From a virus: DNA of 64,000 nucleotides. Location: the IMG/VR virus record IMGVR_UViG_3300040808_000935, positions 1-64,000 of that record. One strand, 5' to 3'. A program made the position numbers and the translations under genes. Of this stretch, positions 18,927 to 64,000 are shown piece by piece (position 1 is the stretch's first letter; every line of letters starts with the position of its first letter). The notes beneath the pieces were generated by a model that was given only the letters and a program-made list of their open reading frames with translations, searched no databases and was not told where the DNA came from.

Positions 18927-19585
18927 AATTGTTTGAACATAATATTGTTGAGATACCTCAACTAAAACAAATTAACACAGACGCCGGAAGGAGATATGAA
19001 ACTCCTTCTGGTACGCTGTACCCGTCAATTACGACAATCTTATCTCATAAGTCTAAGCCCTTTATTGATGCTTGGCGTAAACGAGTAGGAGCAGATGTTG
19101 CTAACAAGATTAGCAATAAAGCCTCAACTCGAGGGACAAAGATTCACCAATTGTGCGAAGACATTCTTAATAATAAATTGACAGACGATTCAAGTCTCAA
19201 TTATATTGATAAAGAAATGTTCCAAAAGTTTCGTCCTTTGTTAGACGACATAGGTGTGATTAATAGTATTGAATCCAAGCTATATTCAGATCACCTACGT
19301 CTTGCAGGACAGGTTGACTGCATTGCCGAGTATAAAGGCAAAGTGTCAATTATTGATTTCAAAACTTCTATGAAACGTAAAACTAGAAGTATGTGTGAAA
19401 ACTATTTTATACAATGCTGTGCTTATGCTATTATGTTTGAGGAGCGTACAGGTATTCCTGTATCTCAGCTAGTAATACTTATGGCAGTCGAGGGTGAAGA
19501 GCCCATCGTATTTTGTGAGAAGAGAGACGACTATGTTGCCAAACTTCTAGAAGCAAGAGACGACTACGAAGCGGCGTATAAATAA
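18908..19585 (+). CDS. PD-(D/E)XK exonuclease, RecB/MGME1-like
   Basis: 225 residues. The nuclease core is AGQVDCIAE (D137), then IIDFKTS (D150 and K152), then a helix with Q (YFIQCCAYA). Upstream TRGTKIHQLCED is the typical first helix with His and Glu. This matches RecB-family and mitochondrial-genome-maintenance-type single-strand exonucleases found in T4-like marine phages. The likely role is processing DNA ends during replication, recombination or host DNA breakdown. Its last codons overlap the late-promoter box of the tmRNA. Confidence 0.85.
   Translation: MDRSSLKLFEHNIVEIPQLKQINTDAGRRYETPSGTLYPSITTILSHKSKPFIDAWRKRVGADVANKISNKASTRGTKIHQLCEDILNNKLTDDSSLNYIDKEMFQKFRPLLDDIGVINSIESKLYSDHLRLAGQVDCIAEYKGKVSIIDFKTSMKRKTRSMCENYFIQCCAYAIMFEERTGIPVSQLVILMAVEGEEPIVFCEKRDDYVAKLLEARDDYEAAYK
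19577..19584 (+). promoter_or_regulatory. T4-type late promoter box (TATAAATA) for the tmRNA
   Basis: TATAAATA over the last codons of the exonuclease gene. The predicted start, 6 bases downstream at 19590, coincides with the beginning of the tmRNA acceptor segment. Confidence 0.6.
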
Positions 19586-19589
19586 AATG

Positions 19590-19855
19590 CCTGTTGAGGG
19601 TTGTAGTAAAACGAGGCTGGACTCGGGTTCGAATCCCGACAGCTCCACCAAAAGCATACTAGTGTCCAGTTAAGTTTGGAACACATCTGATAAAGTGGCT
19701 AGTGTGCTTTTGATGGGGCTGACAAGGTATCGACAGTCAAGAAAATAAGCAACAAGAGGGTCGTCAGAGTAGACGTAAAAACTATTTTAATCTAAATGCA
19801 AACGCAAACGATTACGCATTAGCAGCATAAGCTAATTGGGGTATGGGCTCCACCT
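19590..19855 (+). ncRNA. ssrA: Permuted (two-piece) tmRNA gene
   Basis: The order is inverted relative to a standard tmRNA. First comes the acceptor segment with T-stem TCGGG/CCCGA around TTCGAAT (19623-19639), then CAGCTCC-A-CCA ending at 19650. A linker follows, then GGGGCTG (19715-19721), which pairs with CAGCTCC (7 bp, third pair G-U, the alanine identity pair). CAGTC at 19734-19738 can pair with GGCTG at 19615-19619 as helix 2. The tag frame ends ANDYALAA-stop (stop 19828-19830; resume codon GCA at 19798 or 19804), enclosed by TTAGC/GCTAA (helix 5). It rescues stalled ribosomes and tags proteins for decay. The outer ends are approximate. Confidence 0.93.
19651..19714 (+). other. tmRNA intervening segment hairpin (removed on maturation)
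   Basis: Bases 19651-19662 pair with 19699-19710 (12 bp, one G-U), directly after the encoded CCA and 4 bases before GGGGCTG. A smaller inner stem pairs 19664-19669 with 19677-19683. The hairpin stacks on the acceptor stem, as expected for the spacer that joins the halves of a permuted tmRNA precursor. Confidence 0.85.
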
Positions 19856-19892
19856 TATAATCAAACGGGCCCAACATTAAAGGAGGACTTCC

Positions 19893-20387
19893 ATGAGAAC
19901 AATTCTAGGAATAATCTTGGGACTTTCAACTTTTCCAAGTACAGGTACAGGATTAGATGAACCCACAGATGTTGATTTAAGACAAGTACATTGTTTAGCA
20001 CACAACATTTATTTCGAAGCATCCAACCAAGGAACTGCTGGAATGGTTGGAGTAGGACAAGTAACACTCAATAGAGTAAAGTCTAAAAAATATCCTAATA
20101 CAATTTGCGAGGTTGTATACCAAGCAGAGTATAGGATAAACTGGAAAGGTAATAGAGTTCCTGTCCTAAATCGGTGCCAGTTCAGTTGGTATTGTGATGG
20201 GAAAGCAGAAACAATACGTTACCCAAAGGATTATGATGAAGCTTATATTATGGCAGAACTTCTAATAGAAGACCGCCTAGTTGATATAACAGATGGTGCC
20301 TTATTTTATCATGCGGATTATGTTAGCCCAAAGTGGGCAAAGAGCATGGCACAAAAAATAAAAATAGGCGACCATATCTTTTATTAA
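19893..20387 (+). CDS. SleB/CwlJ-type cell-wall hydrolase (probable endolysin)
   Basis: 164 residues. The Hydrolase_2 (SleB) core is CLAHNIYFEA with catalytic E42, then GQVTLNRVKS and CQFSWYCDGK. It cleaves peptidoglycan glycan strands. The first ~20 residues (ILGIILGLSTF) form a short hydrophobic segment that could act as a signal or signal-anchor, so export may not need a holin. AAAGGAGG lies 5-6 bases before the ATG. It sits straight after the tmRNA and may share the late promoter at 19577. Lysis at the end of infection is the inferred role. Confidence 0.85.
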   Translation: MRTILGIILGLSTFPSTGTGLDEPTDVDLRQVHCLAHNIYFEASNQGTAGMVGVGQVTLNRVKSKKYPNTICEVVYQAEYRINWKGNRVPVLNRCQFSWYCDGKAETIRYPKDYDEAYIMAELLIEDRLVDITDGALFYHADYVSPKWAKSMAQKIKIGDHIFY

Positions 20388-44169: not shown

Positions 44170-50373
<6,204 letters not shown>

Positions 50374-54449: not shown

Positions 54450-55086
54450 CATAAGCGACGAGCTATTAGATATTCTTCAACCGTACACCGACTGGTTTTT
54501 TAGTCAAGACTTAACTGAACTTGAAAAACATATTGACGGGAAAAGAGCAGGCGACGAAACTATAGATACTGCCTGTGAAAAAGAATACTTAGATATGATT
54601 GTTGCAAAGGATGGCGCCCATGTTGGATACCCAGAACATACAAAATCTATAGATATATTAATGGACGAAAGAACTCCTCGTGAACACAGAGAAAAGTGTC
54701 AAGAGTTAAATAGAGAATTGTGTGCTTACTTAGGTGCTAGAAATCAAGCAGTTCAAGTTTACTATCCTAAAGACGGATTTATGGCCTGGCACAATAACTG
54801 GAATGCATCTGGCTATAATATTCTTTTATCTTATAGTCCAACGGGTAATGGATTCTTTAAGTATTTAGATCCTAAAACTAAAGAACTTGTTACAATGAAA
54901 GATAAAGCAGGTTGGGCTTGTAAAGTAGGATACTACGGAAGGGGTAGAGAACCTGACAAAGTTTATTACCATTGTGCAGGTTCATATGAAGATCGCCTTA
55001 CTTTAGGGTTTGTTATTCCACATTTAGAATTGTGGCGTAACATGATTGAAGATATCTCAGGAGAAGATGCTACTTCTTACCAATAG
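54436..55086 (+). CDS. 2OG-Fe(II) oxygenase-like protein
   Basis: 216 residues. VQVYYPKDGFMAWHNNWNA then YNILLSYSPTGNGFFKYLD and VYYHCAGSYEDRLTLGFVI fit a double-stranded beta-helix with two histidines, as in 2-oxoglutarate/iron hydroxylases common in marine phages. The iron ligand set (H-x-N/D…H) is plausible, but the acidic ligand is uncertain. It converges with the minus-strand methyltransferase gene and overlaps it by 17 bases. Confidence 0.55.
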   Translation: MKWVNISDELLDILQPYTDWFFSQDLTELEKHIDGKRAGDETIDTACEKEYLDMIVAKDGAHVGYPEHTKSIDILMDERTPREHREKCQELNRELCAYLGARNQAVQVYYPKDGFMAWHNNWNASGYNILLSYSPTGNGFFKYLDPKTKELVTMKDKAGWACKVGYYGRGREPDKVYYHCAGSYEDRLTLGFVIPHLELWRNMIEDISGEDATSYQ

Positions 55087-55747
55087 CCATAAATCTATCG
55101 TAAAACTTTTTACCGTCCCACGAATAATAATATTGAATTGTCTTGCCACTATAATAAGTGTCCTTTAATCCTATATTTTCTATTAGCGCAAGTTCGCTAT
55201 CAACACAATTAATGCCGTACATTTCTTCCATTACGTTAGAAGACTGACAAGCAAATATTGCATGCTTGTTAGCAGTATAAAGATCTTGTAACGGATACAT
55301 CTGTTCGCACCCTAAAGATATAACAACATCTACATTCATCTGATTAAGTTCGTCAAACGCAAAAGGAACATCTAAGTTCCAGTGATTAATCTTAATGAAC
55401 TCTTCTTTAATATAATGCCCATTAAAAACTTTAGATAACTCTAAAGCCTCAGGATCAATATCGACCAAGTGTAGTTGCCCTACAGATAAGTTTTCACAAA
55501 GCAGAGGCACTAAAGGAATACCTAACCAAGAATTTAGAACAAGAATATTCAATCCTTCTTCTTTCATATAGTGTTCTTCTAGAACTTTCTTTAGTTCTTC
55601 CACCATCCAAATACCTGCTTCCATAGTATTCGGATTGAGAGCCTGTCTAAAGTCCTCATGTTTATGCTTCATTTCATGTTCGACTTTAGCTAGTCCATCG
55701 CCCCAGTGTTGGAGACTGTTTAAAAAATTATAGTTCAAATTTGACAT
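55070..55747 (-). CDS. Methyltransferase-like protein (paralogue of 4596-5189)
   Basis: 225 residues from the ATG at 55747, with GGAAGGAAAGAAG directly upstream. The longer frame to 55888 lies inside the previous gene and is rejected. NILVLNSWLGIPLV, then LHLVDIDPEALEL, VVISLGCEQMYP and the final FMAIGKK repeat the plan of the 4596-5189 protein. The fold is Rossmann-like and the glycine loop is atypical. It is the last gene of the minus-strand glycosyltransferase run. Confidence 0.65.
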   Translation of the reverse strand: MSNLNYNFLNSLQHWGDGLAKVEHEMKHKHEDFRQALNPNTMEAGIWMVEELKKVLEEHYMKEEGLNILVLNSWLGIPLVPLLCENLSVGQLHLVDIDPEALELSKVFNGHYIKEEFIKINHWNLDVPFAFDELNQMNVDVVISLGCEQMYPLQDLYTANKHAIFACQSSNVMEEMYGINCVDSELALIENIGLKDTYYSGKTIQYYYSWDGKKFYDRFMAIGKK

Positions 55748-56411
55748 CTTCTTTCCTTCCCATTGAATCAAATAAACAAACGTAAGGCATTTGTCTATAG
55801 ACTTGTTTTTCTGTATCATGGGGCCAAATATAACCTTGGTTATAACTGTACGCCCACCCAATTGGAAAATATTTAATCCTAGCAACACCGCGGTGTCCGA
55901 AGAAATTATCTATTCCCCTGTAATACCAAAGTATCTGTTTTAGATGCTTGTTAAGATATAAAGTAATATCTTCGGTATTTAAATTATCATTCCATCTTAA
56001 AACTGACGAGTTCAAGTCAGTATACTTATGTGGAATGTGTCTTGTATCTTTATATTGAGTTTCCATATCATGCCAGTGTGTCTTAATGAAACACAAACAA
56101 TCCTCAGGATCAAACTCAACCCATTCGTCTAAGTTTCTTTGAATGATAACATCTAAGTCGAAAAACATTTTCTCGCCCTTTTGACGAACTACATTATCAT
56201 CAAACAAGTACATTTTATTCCACCACTTTTCTAAGTTATTATTTTTAGGTAGTGGAATAACATTTATATCTTCAGACAATCCTCTAGGGTCTTCTGTTAA
56301 ACAAAAGAACTTAAACTCTGAGCTAATGTTCTTAACACAGGATTCGTAAATTGCTTGAACGTGCTTGTGGGAATACTTGTTTCCCCACTTCACGGTATAA
56401 ATGTTTATCAT
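55728..56411 (-). CDS. Glycosyltransferase, K-W-G family (1)
   Basis: 227 residues from the ATG at 56411, which overlaps the previous stop as ATGA. NIYTVKWGNKYSHKHVQAIYES opens the GT-A domain. MFFDLDVII gives the DxD motif at about 85-87, and WAYSYNQGYIWPHD lies near the end. It shares the opening (KWG-x-KY) and the DLD motif with three other proteins in this strand run (56408, 58917, 59665). The predicted substrate is a nucleotide sugar and the acceptor is unknown. Confidence 0.75.
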   Translation of the reverse strand: MINIYTVKWGNKYSHKHVQAIYESCVKNISSEFKFFCLTEDPRGLSEDINVIPLPKNNNLEKWWNKMYLFDDNVVRQKGEKMFFDLDVIIQRNLDEWVEFDPEDCLCFIKTHWHDMETQYKDTRHIPHKYTDLNSSVLRWNDNLNTEDITLYLNKHLKQILWYYRGIDNFFGHRGVARIKYFPIGWAYSYNQGYIWPHDTEKQVYRQMPYVCLFDSMGRKEDVKFEL

Positions 56412-57220
56412 TGCCAATGCTTTAATAGTTTAGGATCTACCAACTCATCTTGTTTGGTGTGTCCTCTACTCTTATCCTCAAATGGTAGTAAGTCTACATT
56501 AAACACGCAAACAATACAACCTTCTCTATAAACTCCGACATCCATATCACCACTGTCCCAATCTCTACCTCTGTTATACGAATAGGCGTATTCAGATGGG
56601 AAGTAGTCCCACAGGTTTTCACCATAGATGCCCCATTTCCAACTGTGATAGTTATCTGTTCCGTCGGTATAAGTGAACCATATCTTTTCTTGATTCTCTA
56701 ATACATCGTTCCAAATAATCTCACATTGATCATCGCTCCAAACTTGACAGGACCCGTTTGTGTATGCGCCGTGTGAAAGTTTGAATCTTCGTGTTTTCAT
56801 TGGGCGGGGATCTTGCCACCATGAACGCATCTTTGTAGGACGCTCCATGTTGTAAGTAATGATAGGTTCTAAATCACGTTGAATGATGACATCCAAGTCA
56901 AAGAAAATAAAGCGGCCAGTAGGTTTATCGTCTGCAAAATTATGAGTATTGAATACAAACGTCTTGGGTCTATCCCAACATCTTGCCATGCCGTACTTGA
57001 AGTTGTCGCCACCAAACCAATACTTAGGATGGATATTGGGAATATCAGGAAAATCAATAACTTTAATATCATCTAAAAGTCCTTCTGCATCGTCGGTATA
57101 ACAATAAAAATGAAAGTCGTGTTTTTTGTCGACATGCCGTTTCGTCATGTTATACAAACGATTAACAAAATGAGGCCCATACTTTGAGCCCCATTTAGAG
57201 CAGACTATATTTACCCTCAT
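56408..57220 (-). CDS. Glycosyltransferase, K-W-G family (2)
   Basis: 270 residues. NIVCSKWGSKYGPHFVNRLYNM, then FHFYCYTDDAEGL, IFFDLDVIIQRDLEP (D108-x-D110) and EYAYSYNRGRDWDSG are the same blocks as in its neighbours, most like the 58917-59699 protein. It is coupled at both ends by 4-base overlaps. Likely role: addition of one sugar residue in the island's glycan. Confidence 0.78.
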   Translation of the reverse strand: MRVNIVCSKWGSKYGPHFVNRLYNMTKRHVDKKHDFHFYCYTDDAEGLLDDIKVIDFPDIPNIHPKYWFGGDNFKYGMARCWDRPKTFVFNTHNFADDKPTGRFIFFDLDVIIQRDLEPIITYNMERPTKMRSWWQDPRPMKTRRFKLSHGAYTNGSCQVWSDDQCEIIWNDVLENQEKIWFTYTDGTDNYHSWKWGIYGENLWDYFPSEYAYSYNRGRDWDSGDMDVGVYREGCIVCVFNVDLLPFEDKSRGHTKQDELVDPKLLKHWQ

Positions 57221-57453
57221 AGTTCTTCCACGACGTGTTGAATGACAAAATCTCTACCATACATCAAGCTATAGTTAACTAGCTCAGAAACAATATCCTT
57301 TGTCTTTTCCTCAAATTGATTTTTATTACAATGAACGACAATAGAAACAAACTTGCCGTTTCTAACAGAGTCGATTACATCGTCCGTATCTTTTTTATCC
57401 CAAGTATCAAAGGATCCAAAATACGCATCCGCTTTCCTTGTTGATTTATACAT
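57217..57453 (-). CDS. Small hypothetical protein in glycosyltransferase run
   Basis: 78 residues from the ATG at 57453, with GGAG 9 bases upstream. A GTG at 57468 is the alternative start. Basic start, then DAYFGSFDTWDKKDTDDVIDSVRNGKFVSIVVHCNKNQFE. It overlaps the previous gene by 8 bases and the next by 4. No family is recognised. It may be a partner of the SPASM-like protein. Confidence 0.6.
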   Translation of the reverse strand: MYKSTRKADAYFGSFDTWDKKDTDDVIDSVRNGKFVSIVVHCNKNQFEEKTKDIVSELVNYSLMYGRDFVIQHVVEEL

Positions 57454-58951
57454 TTTTGCACGCTCCACATTTTAGTTTACAAATGTTGCTAGGGTCTAGT
57501 TTTAATTTATTATTGAAGTATGCTGTGTAAAAAGCATTCGTCAAAATAGACTCTAGCGGTTCTAACTTACAATTGTTGGCCTTCCAATTATATATGATGT
57601 CTGTATCTTCATAAGGATTAATGTCTGCTTCTAGTATTTCTCTAGCAGTGTAAACACACGGGAAAACATTTCCTCGCTTGTCTATGTAACATTTATTCTC
57701 AATTTTAGATTTACATCTAACCTTCTTCTCAAATTTAACTTTTACATCTACATAGTCTGCCTCTTTAGGTTTTGTTTGTAGAGTATCAAGTTCTATTAAC
57801 TTATAGTCTGGAAGTTCTTTAACAATTATTCTTTCTTCTTTAACTGGTAGTTCAGGTGGCTTGTTTTCAATAAAAGTAAAGCCACTGAATTTATGTTTTT
57901 TGGATAACGCTCTTGCCTCTTCAATGTCATTATCAGATTGTGTGGTTCTAGTGTATTGCCAAAAAACACGAGCTCCACTCTTTAACAAGGCCTTTGCATT
58001 TGTAATTTGTTTATCAAAGTCTTTGTTATTAATGTCATCAATTGTAGCAGTGATGTTACCCATTTTTCTATATAGTATCCCGGTGCTACCCCACCAAAAT
58101 TCATCATGTGATGTTAAGTCTGTTAATACATCTACACTCACACCTTCAAACTCTAGAAAGTATTCAGAGATGTCGTAAAAGTCCTCACATAAACTTGGCT
58201 CTTCTACGTCATTGGATAAAATTAACTTGGTCATTCTAGACTTTCCTAGAAAGTCCTTATTAAAGATCCTAACAACCTCATCATAGCTAAATCCATTTAC
58301 TTCCATTTCTATTTCAGAAGGCAAGTAAGGATACAAATCTATAGACCTATTATAACAGTTTTCTACGTAGCTGTCAAGAGTATGAGTGTACCAATAAGGA
58401 AAGGTAACGATATCATCTGTAAGACTAATTGGATAGTCTTTGTTTTGTGTATTTAAAAACGGAAGTGATGGTAGTTCGTTAACTTGAAACTCTTGTTTGA
58501 ATTCGTAGTTATAAAATGTTATGTCTTGTTCGTCTCTATCCCATTTTTGTATCAGATTCTGTACATATTTGTTCTTATGTATATAATATGTAACATTTTC
58601 GTCTTGCATTAAAACTTTATCAATACCACTGCCTTTGTACGATAAAAGGGCCATAGGATCATTTAATAAGACGTTTGGAGTAGTAAAAAGACTAACTCCA
58701 TTATCCTTGGTATGTTGTATTAAGTCTATTTCTAACCACTGCTTTCCATACTTTGGAACATGGAATTGAATGCCGTCTACAAAGCCGTCTCGCTTTTTAG
58801 TGCTATTGATATTGTCGAGTTCTTCCTGTGTAGTGAAAACAAAGAAGTCAAAAGGCTGCTCAATCAGGTTCTTTGCCTGAGTATAGAAATTGTTTATATG
58901 GATTTGACTGTACTTACTATCCAGTAAGTTTGCTATTAAAGTTAGCTCCAT
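57446..58951 (-). CDS. GT-like N-terminus fused to a SPASM-like Cys region
   Basis: 501 residues. The N-terminal ~60 residues (LIANLLDSKYSQIHINNFYTQ, then FDFFVFTTQEEL) resemble the opening of the neighbouring glycosyltransferases. The middle has barrel-like segments (GNITATIDDINNKDFDKQI, ARVFWQYTRT). The C-terminus has CKSKIENKCYIDKRGNVFPCVYT, which is SPASM-like, and ends with C491-x3-C495-x2-C498 only three residues before the stop. No CxxxCxxC occurs earlier, so this is either a degenerate radical SAM/SPASM protein or one in unusual order. Confidence 0.6.
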   Translation of the reverse strand: MELTLIANLLDSKYSQIHINNFYTQAKNLIEQPFDFFVFTTQEELDNINSTKKRDGFVDGIQFHVPKYGKQWLEIDLIQHTKDNGVSLFTTPNVLLNDPMALLSYKGSGIDKVLMQDENVTYYIHKNKYVQNLIQKWDRDEQDITFYNYEFKQEFQVNELPSLPFLNTQNKDYPISLTDDIVTFPYWYTHTLDSYVENCYNRSIDLYPYLPSEIEMEVNGFSYDEVVRIFNKDFLGKSRMTKLILSNDVEEPSLCEDFYDISEYFLEFEGVSVDVLTDLTSHDEFWWGSTGILYRKMGNITATIDDINNKDFDKQITNAKALLKSGARVFWQYTRTTQSDNDIEEARALSKKHKFSGFTFIENKPPELPVKEERIIVKELPDYKLIELDTLQTKPKEADYVDVKVKFEKKVRCKSKIENKCYIDKRGNVFPCVYTAREILEADINPYEDTDIIYNWKANNCKLEPLESILTNAFYTAYFNNKLKLDPSNICKLKCGACKNV

Positions 58952-59699
58952 GCCAATGCCTCAAAAGTTTCTCATCTTGTAATTCACTCATTTTAATCTG
59001 CGCCTTAGCTGCAGGGTCTGGAGTTAAGTCTGTATTAAACAAACAAACTTTATACTCCTCTCTATATTTATACTTCTCTTTATCCTCTTTATGATGAGCT
59101 CCTCTATTATAAGAGTAAACCCAATCCCAAGGAATGTTGCCCCAGAACTTTTTTTGTCTCCAGTAATGGTAGTTATCTGATCCTTTAAAGAATGTTTTAA
59201 ATACTACATCTTGGTGTTCTAGAACATCGTAGTAAATTTTCTCACATTGACTCCCATTCCAACACATCATACTAGAATTAAAATAAGTTCCTCTAATATC
59301 AATAAAGAATCTCTCATGTTGTTGTCCGGGTGGTTGCCATTTAGATTCGATTATTCTAGGTTTGTTTGCTAGATTGTATAGATCGTTTATATTGTTTTGA
59401 ACAATAACATCTAAATCAAAGTAACACCATTTACCCTCATAGCCTAGCCACTTATGAGAGTTGAATACAAGGAACTTAGCACGATCCCAACAAAAGTTTT
59501 CCTTTCCAAACCAATAGTCTGGATGCAGTGGCTCAATATTGGGGATAGGCGCGGTGGCGCAATCGAGTCCTTCTGCGTCATCTGTAAAACAGGTAAAGGT
59601 GCAGGGTCGAGTATAGTGTCTCTCAACCATTGCCTTTAAATTGTTTACATATTCAGGAGAATATTTACTTCCCCATTTGATACATACGAAGTTCATCAT
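58917..59699 (-). CDS. Glycosyltransferase, K-W-G family (3)
   Basis: 260 residues (a second ATG at 59696 is also possible). FVCIKWGSKYSPEYVNNLKAM, then FTCFTDDAEGL, WCYFDLDVIVQNNINDL (D95-x-D97) and DWVYSYNRGAHHKED. It is closest to the 56408-57220 protein. It overlaps its neighbours by about 35 bases on both sides. GT-A fold and nucleotide-sugar use are inferred from the DxD motif and the family layout. Confidence 0.78.
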   Translation of the reverse strand: MMNFVCIKWGSKYSPEYVNNLKAMVERHYTRPCTFTCFTDDAEGLDCATAPIPNIEPLHPDYWFGKENFCWDRAKFLVFNSHKWLGYEGKWCYFDLDVIVQNNINDLYNLANKPRIIESKWQPPGQQHERFFIDIRGTYFNSSMMCWNGSQCEKIYYDVLEHQDVVFKTFFKGSDNYHYWRQKKFWGNIPWDWVYSYNRGAHHKEDKEKYKYREEYKVCLFNTDLTPDPAAKAQIKMSELQDEKLLRHWHGANFNSKLTG

Positions 59700-60315
59700 A
59701 TCTTTTTGCTATGTCCTCTTGAACTGATTCTTGTCCATTCAATAATGCTATTGTTGCGTCTTTTATTTTACCACCATCAAACCAAAATGAATAAACCTCA
59801 TTTTCGGGAAAGTGTTCAAATGTAAAACTCTCATGGTATAAAAACCTATCATCACCTGCATACTTTACCATATAGTAATCTTTATTCTTTTCCCAGTAAT
59901 CATATATATGTCTGTTATCTTCCCACATCATCACACTAGAATTAAAATTGCTTAAATAATTATATGACCACCTACTGTCTTTGTGATAAGGGAATTCTTG
60001 AGGTTTCCAGTAAGTGTAACATATGATGGGGTTCTTGTCAAGCATTTTCCACAAATGTTCTATACCTTTTTGTATTCTAATATCTAAGTCTAAATAAAGA
60101 ACTTTGCCTAAGTTTTCAAGTTTGAACAGTTTAACCTTTTCCCAATGCCCTTCAATTTCATGATCTATAGGTATTGTTGTTATATTTTTATTGAGTCCAA
60201 TAGGATTATCAGTTACACAGACGCGGTTGTAGTCACCTGGAATAGAATTATAAATACGATTAACGTCCTCAGACGTATATTTGTCCCCGTATTTTAATGT
60301 CAAAATTGTTTTCAT
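59665..60315 (-). CDS. Glycosyltransferase, K-W-G family (4)
   Basis: 216 residues. TILTLKYGDKYTSEDVNRIYNS, then VCVTDNPIGLNKN, VLYLDLDIRIQKGIEHLW (D76-x-D78) and FNSSVMMWEDN. It is the first gene of the minus-strand run and the most divergent copy. The 51-base gap to the plus-strand fibre gene holds a plus-strand late box. I see no clear minus-strand promoter there. Confidence 0.75.
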   Translation of the reverse strand: MKTILTLKYGDKYTSEDVNRIYNSIPGDYNRVCVTDNPIGLNKNITTIPIDHEIEGHWEKVKLFKLENLGKVLYLDLDIRIQKGIEHLWKMLDKNPIICYTYWKPQEFPYHKDSRWSYNYLSNFNSSVMMWEDNRHIYDYWEKNKDYYMVKYAGDDRFLYHESFTFEHFPENEVYSFWFDGGKIKDATIALLNGQESVQEDIAKRYDELRMYQMGK

Positions 60316-60366: not shown

Positions 60367-60693
60367 ATGGCAACTGTTTCAAATTTAGTAATAGATCAAG
60401 GTACAACTTTTTCTCTTACTATGCAATTAGATAACGAAGACGGTTCAGATAAGGACCTGACTAGTTATACTGTGAATTCGCAAATACGAAAATCGTATTA
60501 CAGTAATACTTATACAAGTTTTACAACCGCGAAAACAAATTTGACGGGCGAATTAACCATATCTTTAACAGCAGAACAGACTTCAAGTCTTAAAGCAGGA
60601 AGATATGTATATGATATTGAGATTTCCTCAAGTGCAGAAACATTAAGAGTGCTTGAAGGAATCGTAACAGTAACTCCAGAGGTAACCCGATAA
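60367..60693 (+). CDS. Tail-fibre accessory protein (BppU-like beta domain)
   Basis: 108 residues. VIDQGTTFSLTMQLDNEDGSDKDLTSYTVNSQIRKSY then LSLTAEQTSSLKAGRYVYDIEI is the immunoglobulin-like beta domain seen in many phage fibre or baseplate upper-protein families. It overlaps the next gene by 1 base. It is first in the late fibre operon starting at 60333. Confidence 0.65.
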   Translation: MATVSNLVIDQGTTFSLTMQLDNEDGSDKDLTSYTVNSQIRKSYYSNTYTSFTTAKTNLTGELTISLTAEQTSSLKAGRYVYDIEISSSAETLRVLEGIVTVTPEVTR

Positions 60694-60926
60694 TGGCTAT
60701 CAAGATAACTATACCAAGTAGTGGATCTTCAAACCGAGTAATTACTAACACCACCAAAAACTCTAAACAGGTGACCAGTGCTAAAGTAGAACAGCTCGCG
60801 AATATCGACATATCGAATGGTTTACAGGATGGTTATACACTGGTATATGATGAGCCTACGGGCAAGTGGGTAGCACAAAATATCGAAGCAGGACAATTGG
60901 AAAGCTTAGATGGTGGTACTTATTAA
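60693..60926 (+). CDS. Small fibre-linked protein ending LDGGTY
   Basis: 77 residues. AIKITIPSSGSSNRVITNT then DISNGLQDGYTLVYDEPTGKWVAQNIEAG and final ESLDGGTY. The same last motif ends the proteins at 62511 and 63302. The GYTLVYDEPTGKWVAQN stretch is a short repeat unit common in marine phage fibres. It could act as a tip or connector of the fibre. Confidence 0.6.
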   Translation: MAIKITIPSSGSSNRVITNTTKNSKQVTSAKVEQLANIDISNGLQDGYTLVYDEPTGKWVAQNIEAGQLESLDGGTY

Positions 60927-60978
60927 GAGTTTTAATTTATATTATAAAATTACAAACAAACATTCTAGGAGATAATAA

Positions 60979-62511
60979 ATGGCAACAGTAATTCAAATTA
61001 AAAGAAGTACCGCAGCTACAGCCCCTACAACATCGGATCTAAACGAAGGCGAACTGGCGTATAGCCAGGATAAAGCCAACTCAGGTGATTCCGCGATTCT
61101 TTATATTGAATCGGTTGATTCCTCAAATCAACAGGTTGTACATAAAATCGGTGGTAAATTTTACACCGATATCGTAGACGGTGCCTCTTCTTCTAACACA
61201 GCTTCACAGCTTGTTAAGAGAGACGCAAGTGGAGATTTCTCTGCAGGAACAATTACAGCTGATCTTACAGGTAACGTAACAGGAGATTTAACCGGAGATG
61301 TCACAGGTGACGTAACAGGCGACCTTACTGGTAACGTAACGGGTAATGTCACAGGTGACGTAACAGGCGATGTAACCGGCGATATCACTGGTGCAGTAAC
61401 AGGTAACGTAACAGGTGATGTAACTGGTGACCTTACAGGTAATGTAACAGGTAACGTAACAGGTGATGTAACTGGTGACCTTACAGGTAACGCAGATACA
61501 GCAACAACAGCAGCGGCACTAACAACAGCTAGAGCAATTGCTCTTACAGGTGACGTAACAGGTACAGTAAATTTTGACGGTTCAGGCGATGTAAGTATTG
61601 CAACTACAATGGCAGCAGACGCTATTGCACTTGGTACAGACACTACAGGTAACTATGTTGCCACAGTAGCAGACGCAGGAAGCGGCAACCTTACAGTAAC
61701 TGGCTCAGGTTCTGAAACAGCAGGTGTAACACTTGATCTTTCTAACTCAGGCGTATCCGCAGGTTCATACGGTTCTACAACAGCAGTTCCTGTTTTAACA
61801 GTAGACGCTAAAGGTAGGGTCACTGCTGCAACTACAGCAGCAATTGCAACATCATTTGATATTGCAGCGGACAGTGGAACAAATGATACAGTAGCTGGTG
61901 GCGAAACACTTACTTTTGCTGGTACAGCTAACGAAGTAACAACAACCGTATCAGACAATCAAATTCAAGTTGGACTAGCAACAAACCCAACAATTGGCGG
62001 TAACCTAACTGTATCTGGTAACTTAACAGTTTCTGGAACTACAACACAGGTTAACTCTCAGACATTGACAGTTAATGATCCATTATTTAAAGTAGCAACT
62101 GGCAACTCTAGTGACGCTTTAGACATTGGTTTTTATGGTATCTTTAACGACGGCGCTGACAAATACTCTGGTTTATTCAGAGATGCTAATGACGGTAAAT
62201 ACAAAATGTTTACTGGCTCTAGCGTTGAGCCTACAACAACTGTTGACACTACAGCAAGTGGCTATTCCGTAGCAACATTGGTTGCCAACATTGAAGGCAA
62301 CGTAACAGGCGGAACTATTTCTGGACTATCAGCAGCGATTGGTGTTGCAGACGGTGGTACTGGCGCAAGCACTTTTACTTCAAACGGTATCGTTTATGGT
62401 AACGGAACTAGCGCTCTACAAGTAACAGCAGCAGGCACAGAAGGGCAACTGTTAATGGCAGATGCTAGCGGCACGCCTGTTTGGGCAACACTAGACGGCG
62501 GTACGTTCTAG
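60979..62511 (+). CDS. Tail fibre protein with GNVTGD repeats
   Basis: 510 residues. The N-terminal VIQIKRSTAATAPTTSDLNEGELAYSQ is the fibre attachment module. Residues ~90-175 repeat GNVTGDLTGDVTGDV about 15 times. Then come long beta stretches (ATNPTIGGNLTVSGNLTVSG) and a C-terminal head of about 150 residues with DIGFYGIFNDGADKYSGLFRDA. It ends TLDGGTF. It is probably a trimeric fibre. TAGGAGATAA precedes the ATG. Confidence 0.8.
   Translation: MATVIQIKRSTAATAPTTSDLNEGELAYSQDKANSGDSAILYIESVDSSNQQVVHKIGGKFYTDIVDGASSSNTASQLVKRDASGDFSAGTITADLTGNVTGDLTGDVTGDVTGDLTGNVTGNVTGDVTGDVTGDITGAVTGNVTGDVTGDLTGNVTGNVTGDVTGDLTGNADTATTAAALTTARAIALTGDVTGTVNFDGSGDVSIATTMAADAIALGTDTTGNYVATVADAGSGNLTVTGSGSETAGVTLDLSNSGVSAGSYGSTTAVPVLTVDAKGRVTAATTAAIATSFDIAADSGTNDTVAGGETLTFAGTANEVTTTVSDNQIQVGLATNPTIGGNLTVSGNLTVSGTTTQVNSQTLTVNDPLFKVATGNSSDALDIGFYGIFNDGADKYSGLFRDANDGKYKMFTGSSVEPTTTVDTTASGYSVATLVANIEGNVTGGTISGLSAAIGVADGGTGASTFTSNGIVYGNGTSALQVTAAGTEGQLLMADASGTPVWATLDGGTF
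61260..61490 (+). repeat. Tandem repeats encoding G-N/D-V-T-G units
   Basis: About 15 copies of 12- to 15-base units such as GGTAACGTAACA and GGTGATGTAACT, in frame. Several 30-base blocks are nearly identical (61392-61445 and 61440-61490). Confidence 0.8.
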
Positions 62512-62534
62512 AATAATTAATTAAAGGAAATATT

Positions 62535-62777
62535 ATGAGTGAACAAAATCCAAATAATGTAGTTGACGAATATATTGCATTACTAAGTGCAAAACTTAAC
62601 GAAACAACGCAAGAAAATCTCGTTCTAAAAGCTAGAATGAATATCTTACAAAAAGAACGAGATGCTCTTACGGCTCAGTTAGAAGAGTTAAACATACAGG
62701 AGAAAGAGGAAGATGGTAGACACAGTAATCAAACTGAAGAGGTCGGAAACAGCTTCGGCGGTGCCCACGCAGGCTAA
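62535..62777 (+). CDS. Coiled-coil protein between fibre genes
   Basis: 80 residues. The central helix VVDEYIALLSAKLNETTQENLVLKARMNILQKERDALTAQLEEL has clear heptads. The last ~24 residues overlap the next gene (65 bases) and are less ordered. AAAGGAAATATT precedes the ATG. It may be a fibre trimerisation chaperone or connector. Confidence 0.65.
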   Translation: MSEQNPNNVVDEYIALLSAKLNETTQENLVLKARMNILQKERDALTAQLEELNIQEKEEDGRHSNQTEEVGNSFGGAHAG

Positions 62778-63024
62778 CTTAGAAGTTGGTGAGGTTGCTC
62801 TAAATTTAGCAGACAAGATACTTTATACAAAGAATACCGACGGTGCGGTTGTAGCAGTATCTAACTATGTTGTAGGAGATGCCAACTTGGTGTTCCCAAC
62901 AGGTGATTACGGCGACATGACTGCATCAAGTGTAGATGCTTTTGGTGTTGCAACTGAAAGATCTTATGATTGCCGAACTGCTCCTCCTGGAATACTTATA
63001 ACTGAAGATTTCGGAACACTTTAA
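62713..63024 (+). CDS. Fibre attachment-module protein
   Basis: 103 residues from the ATG at 62713, preceded by AGGAGAAAGAGGAAG. DTVIKLKRSETASAVPTQANLEVGEVALNLADKILY is the same N-terminal module as in the 60979 fibre. The C-terminal part (TGDYGDMTASSVDAFG, then PPGILITEDFG) is short. It is either a small connector or a fibre module without a shaft. Confidence 0.65.
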   Translation: MVDTVIKLKRSETASAVPTQANLEVGEVALNLADKILYTKNTDGAVVAVSNYVVGDANLVFPTGDYGDMTASSVDAFGVATERSYDCRTAPPGILITEDFGTL

Positions 63025-63047
63025 TTCAAAATCTAGGAGTATAACCA

Positions 63048-63302
63048 ATGACAACTCAAGTACAATTTAGAAGAGGTACTACAGCAGAAAACAATAATTT
63101 CACTGGCTTAGCCGGAGAGGTTACAGTTAATACTGGTAACTATGCTATGAGAGTTCACGATGGTGCTACTCAAGGCGGTCACGAATTGATGCTAGCTTCG
63201 GCTTCTAATATTTCAGGTAACATACCCTTTACAAATATTAGTGGTACGGTAGAAGCAGATACCCTCGCTGACGGCTCTACATTAGACGGCGGAACATATT
63301 AA
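63048..63302 (+). CDS. Short Mtd-N-type fibre module protein ending LDGGTY
   Basis: 84 residues. TTQVQFRRGTTAENNNFTGLAGEVTVNT then MRVHDGATQGGHEL matches the N-terminal module of tropism determinants and of the next gene. The C-terminus is STLDGGTY, as at 60926. TCTAGGAGTAT precedes the ATG. It is likely an attachment or connector unit in a modular fibre. Confidence 0.68.
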   Translation: MTTQVQFRRGTTAENNNFTGLAGEVTVNTGNYAMRVHDGATQGGHELMLASASNISGNIPFTNISGTVEADTLADGSTLDGGTY

Positions 63303-63321: not shown

Positions 63322-64000
63322 ATGCCAACACAGGTACAATTTAGACGTGGAACTGAAGCACAAAACAATGCTTTTACTGGTGCCGCCGGTGAACTTTCCT
63401 TCGATACAGAGAACTCAGAACTCCGTGTCCATGATGGAAGCACACAAGGTGGATATGTAATAGCAAAAGACTCAGCAGTTCCCACAACATCAGATGACCT
63501 TACAGAAGGGTCAACAAATCTATTTTCAACGAACGAACGTATTGACGATAGAGTAGCTGCTCTTTTAGCAGCAGGCACCGGCATCACATTGTCTTATGAC
63601 GATGATGCTGGAACATTAACAATTAACGGACAATCTGGAGACATTACAGGCGTTACAGCAGGTAATGGTTTGACAGGTGGCGGTGAGTCTGGACTAGTAG
63701 AAGTTAATGTTGTCGGAGGAACAGGTATCAGTGTAAATGCAGATAGCATTACTGTTGATATGACGGACTTCAGCACTGACGACTTAGCAGAAGGTTCAAC
63801 CAAGCTTTACTATACAGATGCTAGAGCACAAGCAGCCATTAGTGGCGGCACAGGTGTTACAGTAACATCTGGTTCAGTAGCAATTGGACAAGCAGTAGAT
63901 ACTACATCTAACCCAACTTTTGCAGGTGCTACATTTACAACAGACGTTGAAATGCAAGGCGATATTATCCCAGATACAGATAATACACATAGTCTTGGTA
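63322..64000 (+). CDS. Tail fibre protein, Mtd-N-type N-terminus (3' end cut)
   Basis: Open from the ATG at 63322 to the window end (226 residues seen). PTQVQFRRGTEAQNNAFTGAAGELSFDT then LRVHDGSTQGG is close to the preceding gene, so the two arose by duplication. Repeats of the type DDLTEGSTNLFSTNERIDDRVAA and DDLAEGSTKLYYTDARAQAAI follow, typical of phage fibre shafts, with GNGLTGGG beta units. TTAGGAGATTA precedes the ATG. Confidence 0.78.
   Translation, partial: MPTQVQFRRGTEAQNNAFTGAAGELSFDTENSELRVHDGSTQGGYVIAKDSAVPTTSDDLTEGSTNLFSTNERIDDRVAALLAAGTGITLSYDDDAGTLTINGQSGDITGVTAGNGLTGGGESGLVEVNVVGGTGISVNADSITVDMTDFSTDDLAEGSTKLYYTDARAQAAISGGTGVTVTSGSVAIGQAVDTTSNPTFAGATFTTDVEMQGDIIPDTDNTHSLG

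Follow-up and report, generated by a model that had tools for sequence, protein, structure and literature searches.

A conserved C-terminal tail in marine phage fibre proteins and its probable docking into N-terminal sockets of the next fibre protein

Results

Gene content of the fibre cassette

The window (the whole stretch of DNA analysed, 64,000 nt, positions 1 to 64,000 of the 64,526-bp IMG/VR record IMGVR_UViG_3300040808_000935) comes from a T4-like marine phage. Its gp5-like and wedge-subunit baseplate genes are located at 34.7–44 kb and a very large protein of the phrog_358 family is encoded at 44170–50373. The fibre cassette lies at the end of the window and includes the following features:

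60367–60693, + strand: LtfC-like / BppU_N-like beta-sandwich protein, 108 aa (PHROG 1084, E=2.4e-27)
60693–60926, + strand: adapter, 77 aa, with a tail and no socket, C-terminus ESLDGGTY
60906–60923, + strand: type 1 tail LDGGTY, the C-terminal residues of the adapter
60979–62511, + strand: long fibre protein, 510 aa, with N-terminal socket, repetitive shaft and C-terminal tail
60979–61158, + strand: KRS-type socket of the long fibre (profile A2, E=3.7e-16)
62491–62508, + strand: type 1 tail LDGGTF of the long fibre, which ends ATLDGGTF
62535–62777, + strand: small probable coiled-coil protein, 80 aa, with weak coiled-coil matches only
62713–63024, + strand: small socket protein, 103 aa, with KRS socket and type 2 tail
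63004–63021, + strand: type 2 tail EDFGTL of the small socket protein, which ends TEDFGTL
63048–63302, + strand: mini coupler, 84 aa, with Mtd_N socket (PF18454), short linker and type 1 tail
63282–63299, + strand: type 1 tail LDGGTY of the mini coupler, which ends STLDGGTY
63322–64000, + strand: distal fibre protein with Mtd_N socket (PF18454, 47.9 bits)

The first protein of the cassette also matched PHROG 3304, annotated as 'L-shaped tail fiber protein assembly' (E=2e-22), and scored 16.9 bits against Pfam LtfC (PF23926), which is under the curated cut-off of 27 bits; its gene also precedes the adapter gene in the relatives, and the protein is presumed to be the virion anchor of the fibre. 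In the small socket protein only the N-terminal socket (62719–62862; profile A2, E=2.8e-20) matched phage long-tail-fibre families, such as phrog_1699 (E=2e-9). The mini coupler, whose aligned relatives were 66–84 aa long, matched Pfam Mtd_N with 46.0 bits at a curated cut-off of 26.3, its socket covering positions 63048–63182 (profile E=1.5e-19). The socket of the distal fibre was located at 63322–63453 (profile E=1.6e-17), and the reading frame of this protein was still open both at the end of the window and at the end of the 64,526-bp record.

The order of LtfC-like gene, adapter of ~70–90 aa and long fibre was kept in five named phages. The adapter ended with NGGSF and the fibre with IDGGTF in both Prochlorococcus phages P-HM1 and MED4-213, while the corresponding endings were NAGAF and IDGGSF in Pelagibacter phage Mosig, NGGTF and IDGGTYS in Methylophilales phage Melnitz-3, and ESGQY and IDGGTY in Limnohabitans phage DC31. 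The cassette of the cyanophages (Kyanoviridae and relatives; T4-like GC 211, 508, 509, 510 and 511 in P-HM1) matches the one found here in gene order and in its kinds of tail and socket; the annotations of its genes are limited to hypothetical, 'baseplate wedge initiator' or 'L-shaped tail fiber protein assembly' and do not mention the tail.

The C-terminal tail

A preliminary description of this DNA had reported that three neighbouring proteins, ending at 60926, 62511 and 63302, finish with ESLDGGTY, ATLDGGTF and STLDGGTY, and all three endings proved exact on re-reading. The complete 64,526-bp record had three occurrences of the degenerate motif followed by a stop, all of them in forward orientation, and none of the reversed pattern that was used as a control. 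The codons differed between the three tails of the window (TTAGATGGTGGTACTTAT, CTAGACGGCGGTACGTTC and TTAGACGGCGGAACATAT), indicating a protein signal and not a DNA repeat. A fourth protein of the cassette (62713–63024), absent from the preliminary description, carried the related tail TEDFGTL, and only four of the 70 genes called in the window ended with either type of tail.

The comparison was extended to 80 IMG/VR loci fetched via the LtfC-like neighbour gene and not via the motif; adding the window and the named phages brought the set to 1156 genes and ~348,000 residues. An internal occurrence as frequent as the terminal one, named in advance as the result that would speak against the motif, was not found: the motif lay within one residue of the stop in 143 cases, all five other occurrences were placed 2–4 residues before the stop, and no deeply internal occurrence was present in the ~348,000 residues. 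The tail was found in many phages besides the one analysed. In a DNA scan of viral contigs with a single-codon version of the motif, in which the codon after the motif was left free, a stop directly followed the motif in 68 of the 120 matches, compared to a chance expectation of ~5–6. Each of the 53 non-redundant tails had its own DNA spelling. The information content was ~1 bit at position -7 and 3–4.3 bits at positions -6 to -1, the latter values being partly set by the definition of the motif.

In 24 cultured genomes, the real-frame sites of the loose motif with a stop were adapters and fibres, and the remaining loose matches were either followed by TGG, that is, by no stop, or, in the four that were checked, belonged to frames of 5–37 codons. 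The latter four, from P-HM1, Bellamy and S-SCSM1, carry the motif with a stop and were rejected as chance. The [LI]DGGT[FY] tail is real, located at the extreme C-terminus and selected at the protein rather than at the DNA level.

The socket domains

The socket is an N-terminal domain of ~45 residues, either of the KRS type ('IxIKRSxxxxxPxxxxLxxGELA') or corresponding to Pfam Mtd_N. The KRS domains of the proteins at 60979–62511 and 62713–63024 had no match to PF18454, while the alignment of a KRS-only profile with Mtd_N in hhalign gave 74% with E=2.9e-5, providing moderate support for a distant relationship between the two types, as judged from profile comparison. The KRS-only profile was used for this purpose since profile A2 itself contains Mtd, and the match of A2 to Mtd was discarded as circular proof of kinship. 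The Mtd_N query alignment A3, which opens with a lightly smoothed, self-made Mtd-like sequence, was used only for fetching loci. In the comparison with PDB sequences, the mini coupler matched Mtd chains only, the adapter had no match in a direct sequence search and the KRS-only profile found nothing significant.

Structures were predicted with AlphaFold2 for single chains of proteins that are expected to be trimers. The model of the mini coupler had a socket with pLDDT ~83 and a disordered tail with pLDDT ~46. The model of a natural read-through of adapter, linker and KRS domain (A4, L011:332-814) had a mean pLDDT of 64 with ~51 in the tail, and this monomer gave no docking signal and no meaningful match to PDB folds.

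Association of tails with sockets

In loci which were not chosen by the motif, a socket gene was found at most two genes downstream of 114 out of 117 tail-ended genes compared to 156 out of 779 other genes. The difference was the same in kind when the loci were chosen solely by one socket type: with the KRS socket, a socket followed 78/78 tail-ended genes versus 49/202 others, and with Mtd_N 73/80 versus 70/351, all three contrasts being conservative because the comparison groups include coiled-coil genes and other tail classes. The socket came either directly after the tail-ended gene or after one small coiled-coil gene. The socket proteins themselves behaved according to their position, with a tail present in 91 of 107 that had another socket protein after them and in 6 of 41 that had none.

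The common grammar of the locus was an adapter with tail, a fibre with socket and tail, a coiled coil, a small protein with socket and type 2 tail, a mini coupler with socket and tail and, finally, a distal fibre with socket. Chains shorter than this adapter-to-distal-fibre arrangement were present in some loci.

The number of tails was also balanced by the number of sockets. A profile search of the whole record found exactly four sockets for its four tails, one of which was of type 2 (EDFGTL), and the numbers were equal in 15 of 16 tailed cultured genomes. A socket was present for every tail, either linked or unlinked, the exceptions being S-B43, where three tails were accompanied by two sockets, S-SCSM1, where a KRS socket was detected but not a tail, and a small number of partial contigs. 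Some of the motif-ended proteins from the pattern scan came from contigs that yielded no socket (L106, L115, L140 and the 87-kb L101).

Unlinked pairs and natural fusions

Since gene adjacency might be misleading, phages whose adapter gene has no socket gene after it were searched over their whole genomes, where docking would predict a socket at another site. In seven of them (S-T4, S-SRM01, ACG-2014f, S-CAM7, AG-345-L05, Sf-CH8 and S-SKS1), the adapter was followed by the gp13 neck gene or its equivalent and not by a socket, and each of these genomes had a single tailed adapter and exactly one socket, ~80–110 kb apart, with the remote socket belonging to a large fibre-like protein. In S-T4, the pair consists of a 72-aa adapter and an 836-aa socket fibre, whose genes are ~82 kb from each other. 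S-8S55, S-CAM9 and P-SSM2 had two tails each and as many sockets, of which one was remote. Gene adjacency was rejected as a requirement, given the co-occurrence of tail and socket ~80–110 kb apart. Bellamy and S-SM2 had the LtfC-like gene, and neither a tailed adapter nor a socket was found in them. Overall, all 16 genomes that have a tailed adapter also had a KRS socket, compared to one of the eight that lack such an adapter (Fisher 2e-5, a nominal value which ignores relatedness, as the phages are related and not independent).

Natural fusions of adapter and fibre provided a different line of evidence. One is present in Pelagibacter phage HTVC008M, where the adapter part, which matches the adapter of Mosig (BLAST E=5e-12), continues directly into the fibre shaft, and both the tail and the KRS socket were missing. 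Adapter-shaft fusions were also present in contigs L054, L055 and L056, which belong to a different sequence group; the tail was absent from them as well and no socket was found in these partial records. Such a loss of both elements is to be expected if their sole role is the joining of these two proteins. The tail is tied to the sockets by gene order, by number, by gene content at unlinked sites and by joint loss in fusions.

Discussion

Proposed role of the tail

The C-terminal tail probably docks into the socket with which the following protein starts and, by doing so, links the fibre segments, although direct binding is what we infer from sequences. The tail would be a short linear plug entering the N-terminal KRS or Mtd_N socket of the protein that comes next in the fibre, and proteins made as separate chains would thereby be joined C-terminus to N-terminus into one multi-protein fibre. 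In the phage analysed here, the chain would consist of the LtfC-like anchor, the adapter, the long fibre, the small KRS protein, the mini coupler and the distal Mtd_N fibre. With trimers on both sides, three tails would meet a three-fold socket, and the order along the fibre would follow the gene order. The preliminary description had suggested either a docking tag for fibre assembly or a tag for a common partner. The former is now the best-supported reading, with the KRS/Mtd_N domains as the partner predicted from adjacency and from unlinked co-occurrence; the latter agrees with the socket fold being shared, but each tail seems to have a socket protein of its own.

The strongest competing explanation is that a common third protein binds the tail, such as an assembly chaperone, the intergenic coiled-coil protein or the LtfC-like anchor, and that the link to the sockets is indirect, through the same assembly pathway. 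Many phage fibres need chaperones, the adapter adjoins the LtfC-like gene, and in the loci compared the small coiled-coil gene frequently separates the long fibre from the gene of the following socket protein. We nevertheless consider it unlikely: the cassettes of Melnitz-3 and DC31 keep tail and socket without a coiled-coil gene, the tail counts track sockets and not coiled coils, and the LtfC-like protein is kept in Bellamy, S-SM2 and the fusion phages, which have neither the tail nor a KRS socket.

It is even less probable that the tail is a structural cap, which closes the C-terminus of the trimeric fibre, binds nothing and recurs as a shared end module. A segment of the type 'DGxxLvYdxxxxkW' or 'GTDGYxLYSNSGTPxW' does precede the tail in a number of adapters and long fibres, but the mini coupler has the tail without such a segment, and the tail is carried by many unrelated ends, which show ~1 bit of conservation. 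Furthermore, a cap does not predict co-occurrence over ~100 kb, equal counts or joint loss in fusions.

Two other explanations are refuted. A feature of the DNA itself, such as a recombination site or a gene end copied recently, might have been suspected from the frequent recombination of phage fibre genes and the placement of the motif at gene ends, but the codons differ already among the three window copies, and all 53 of the 53 non-redundant tails differ in nucleotides while the protein motif is kept. Chance likeness of glycine-rich ends, conceivable with G, T and D abundant in fibre proteins, is contradicted by the terminal placement (143 terminal versus 5 near-terminal cases) and by the real-frame sites in the 24 genomes being adapters and fibres.

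Comparison with known fibres

The proposed architecture resembles that of the T4 long tail fibre (gp34-gp35-gp36-gp37), where several proteins are placed end to end with the C-terminus towards the next one, although T4 has a separate hinge protein, gp35, and the likeness is one of architecture and not of compared sequences, with neither a DGGT[FY] tail nor a KRS domain being claimed for T4. Joints between separate phage fibre proteins are poorly known even in T4, where the contact of the gp34 C-terminus with the distal half of the fibre was still open in the work cited (PMC5537660). The neck fibre of the Anabaena phage A-1(L) (gp82-gp81-gp80) is also encoded by neighbouring genes and formed by trimers arranged head to tail as a chain of beads; in the passages compared, it differs in that N-terminal beta-hairpins meet the previous trimer and many copies of one protein are used, and a short C-terminal consensus is not described there (PMC10966104). 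End-to-end fibres made of several proteins are thus already known, whereas the tail found here appears to have no earlier description: a literature search, most subscription journals being outside its reach, found nothing on DGGTF or on a C-terminal docking motif conserved among fibre proteins.

With a tail of six residues and a socket of 45 residues, the predicted joint is small and widespread in marine phages, and it lends itself to tests with peptides. Most of the fibre genes of marine phages are annotated merely as hypothetical, and the tail-socket rule may help to find fibre proteins, to pair those that are far apart in the genome and to predict their order. It also suggests a candidate binding partner for the Mtd_N domain.

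Type 2 tails and the Mtd protein of BPP-1

The proteins located upstream of Mtd_N proteins and lacking DGGT[FY] often ended with D[LFYW]G[STA][LIV] / D[LFY]G[STG][LIV]. In many other cases the endings before Mtd_N proteins were different, such as MMMGA, IAVALG and RTYGWII, indicating that the socket fold is not restricted to the DGGT[FY] tail; it probably accepts several kinds of tail. A more general joining code, in which C-termini of the D-x-G-x-hydrophobic type (DGGT[FY] and D[LFY]G[ST][LIV]) would serve as plugs for N-terminal sockets of one common family in many phage groups and would be reused within one fibre, seems to us about evenly balanced between true and false. If it is true, the number and order of the fibre segments could be read from the genome, and the best-known example would be Mtd of the Bordetella phage BPP-1.

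BPP-1 agrees with the proposed docking: according to a paper on related proteins, the N-terminal beta-prism of Mtd presumably fixes the trimer to the fibre protein (PMC10743442). The Mtd_N domain is common to Mtd of BPP-1 and to the mini coupler and distal fibre of the phage described here; the difference is that here the Mtd_N/KRS domains start several chained fibre proteins, with type 1 tails upstream. The BPP-1 protein bbp9, encoded directly upstream of mtd, has the C-terminus LADLGGIA, which is similar to the type 2 tails.

Other C-terminal endings and tail arrangements

Among the comparison loci selected by the presence of the Mtd_N socket domain (L211-L290), the proteins encoded upstream of the Mtd_N genes recurrently carried two further C-terminal endings, DPLTDIFMMMGA and FATAIAVALG; in phages S-CAM1 and S-CAM3 the protein at this place ended with RTYGWII. 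All three endings may be plugs of further classes that fit the same socket fold.

In phage S-B43 and the loci L302 and L322, two short adapter-like proteins, ending with IDGGGF and YDGGSF, followed each other ahead of the fibre that bears the socket; this set also included a coiled-coil protein with the end AGDGGTFE. The small proteins of L106 and its relatives, and of L115, L131, L144 and relatives, terminated with SLSTIDGGTY or ITANSIDGGTY and were followed by genes for non-socket proteins; a search for a socket in the short contigs L106 and L115 gave a negative result.

Other genes in the window

62535-62777, small ORF, probable coiled coil, separating the long fibre from the next socket protein
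55070-60315, minus strand, gene run between the baseplate and fibre genes
19558-19921, predicted tmRNA, encoded tag peptide ANANDYALAA
23891-23967, tRNA-Arg

The small ORF overlapped with the start of the 62713 gene and had a counterpart at the same position in many relatives; its product may be either a chaperone or a part of the fibre. The minus-strand run is possibly a phage-borne glycosylation island: four or five of its genes had the N-terminal pattern '...KWGxKYSxxxVNxxY' in common, 59665-60315 weakly matched Glyco_transf_8, and 57446-58951 had an additional, weakly matching SPASM iron-sulphur domain.
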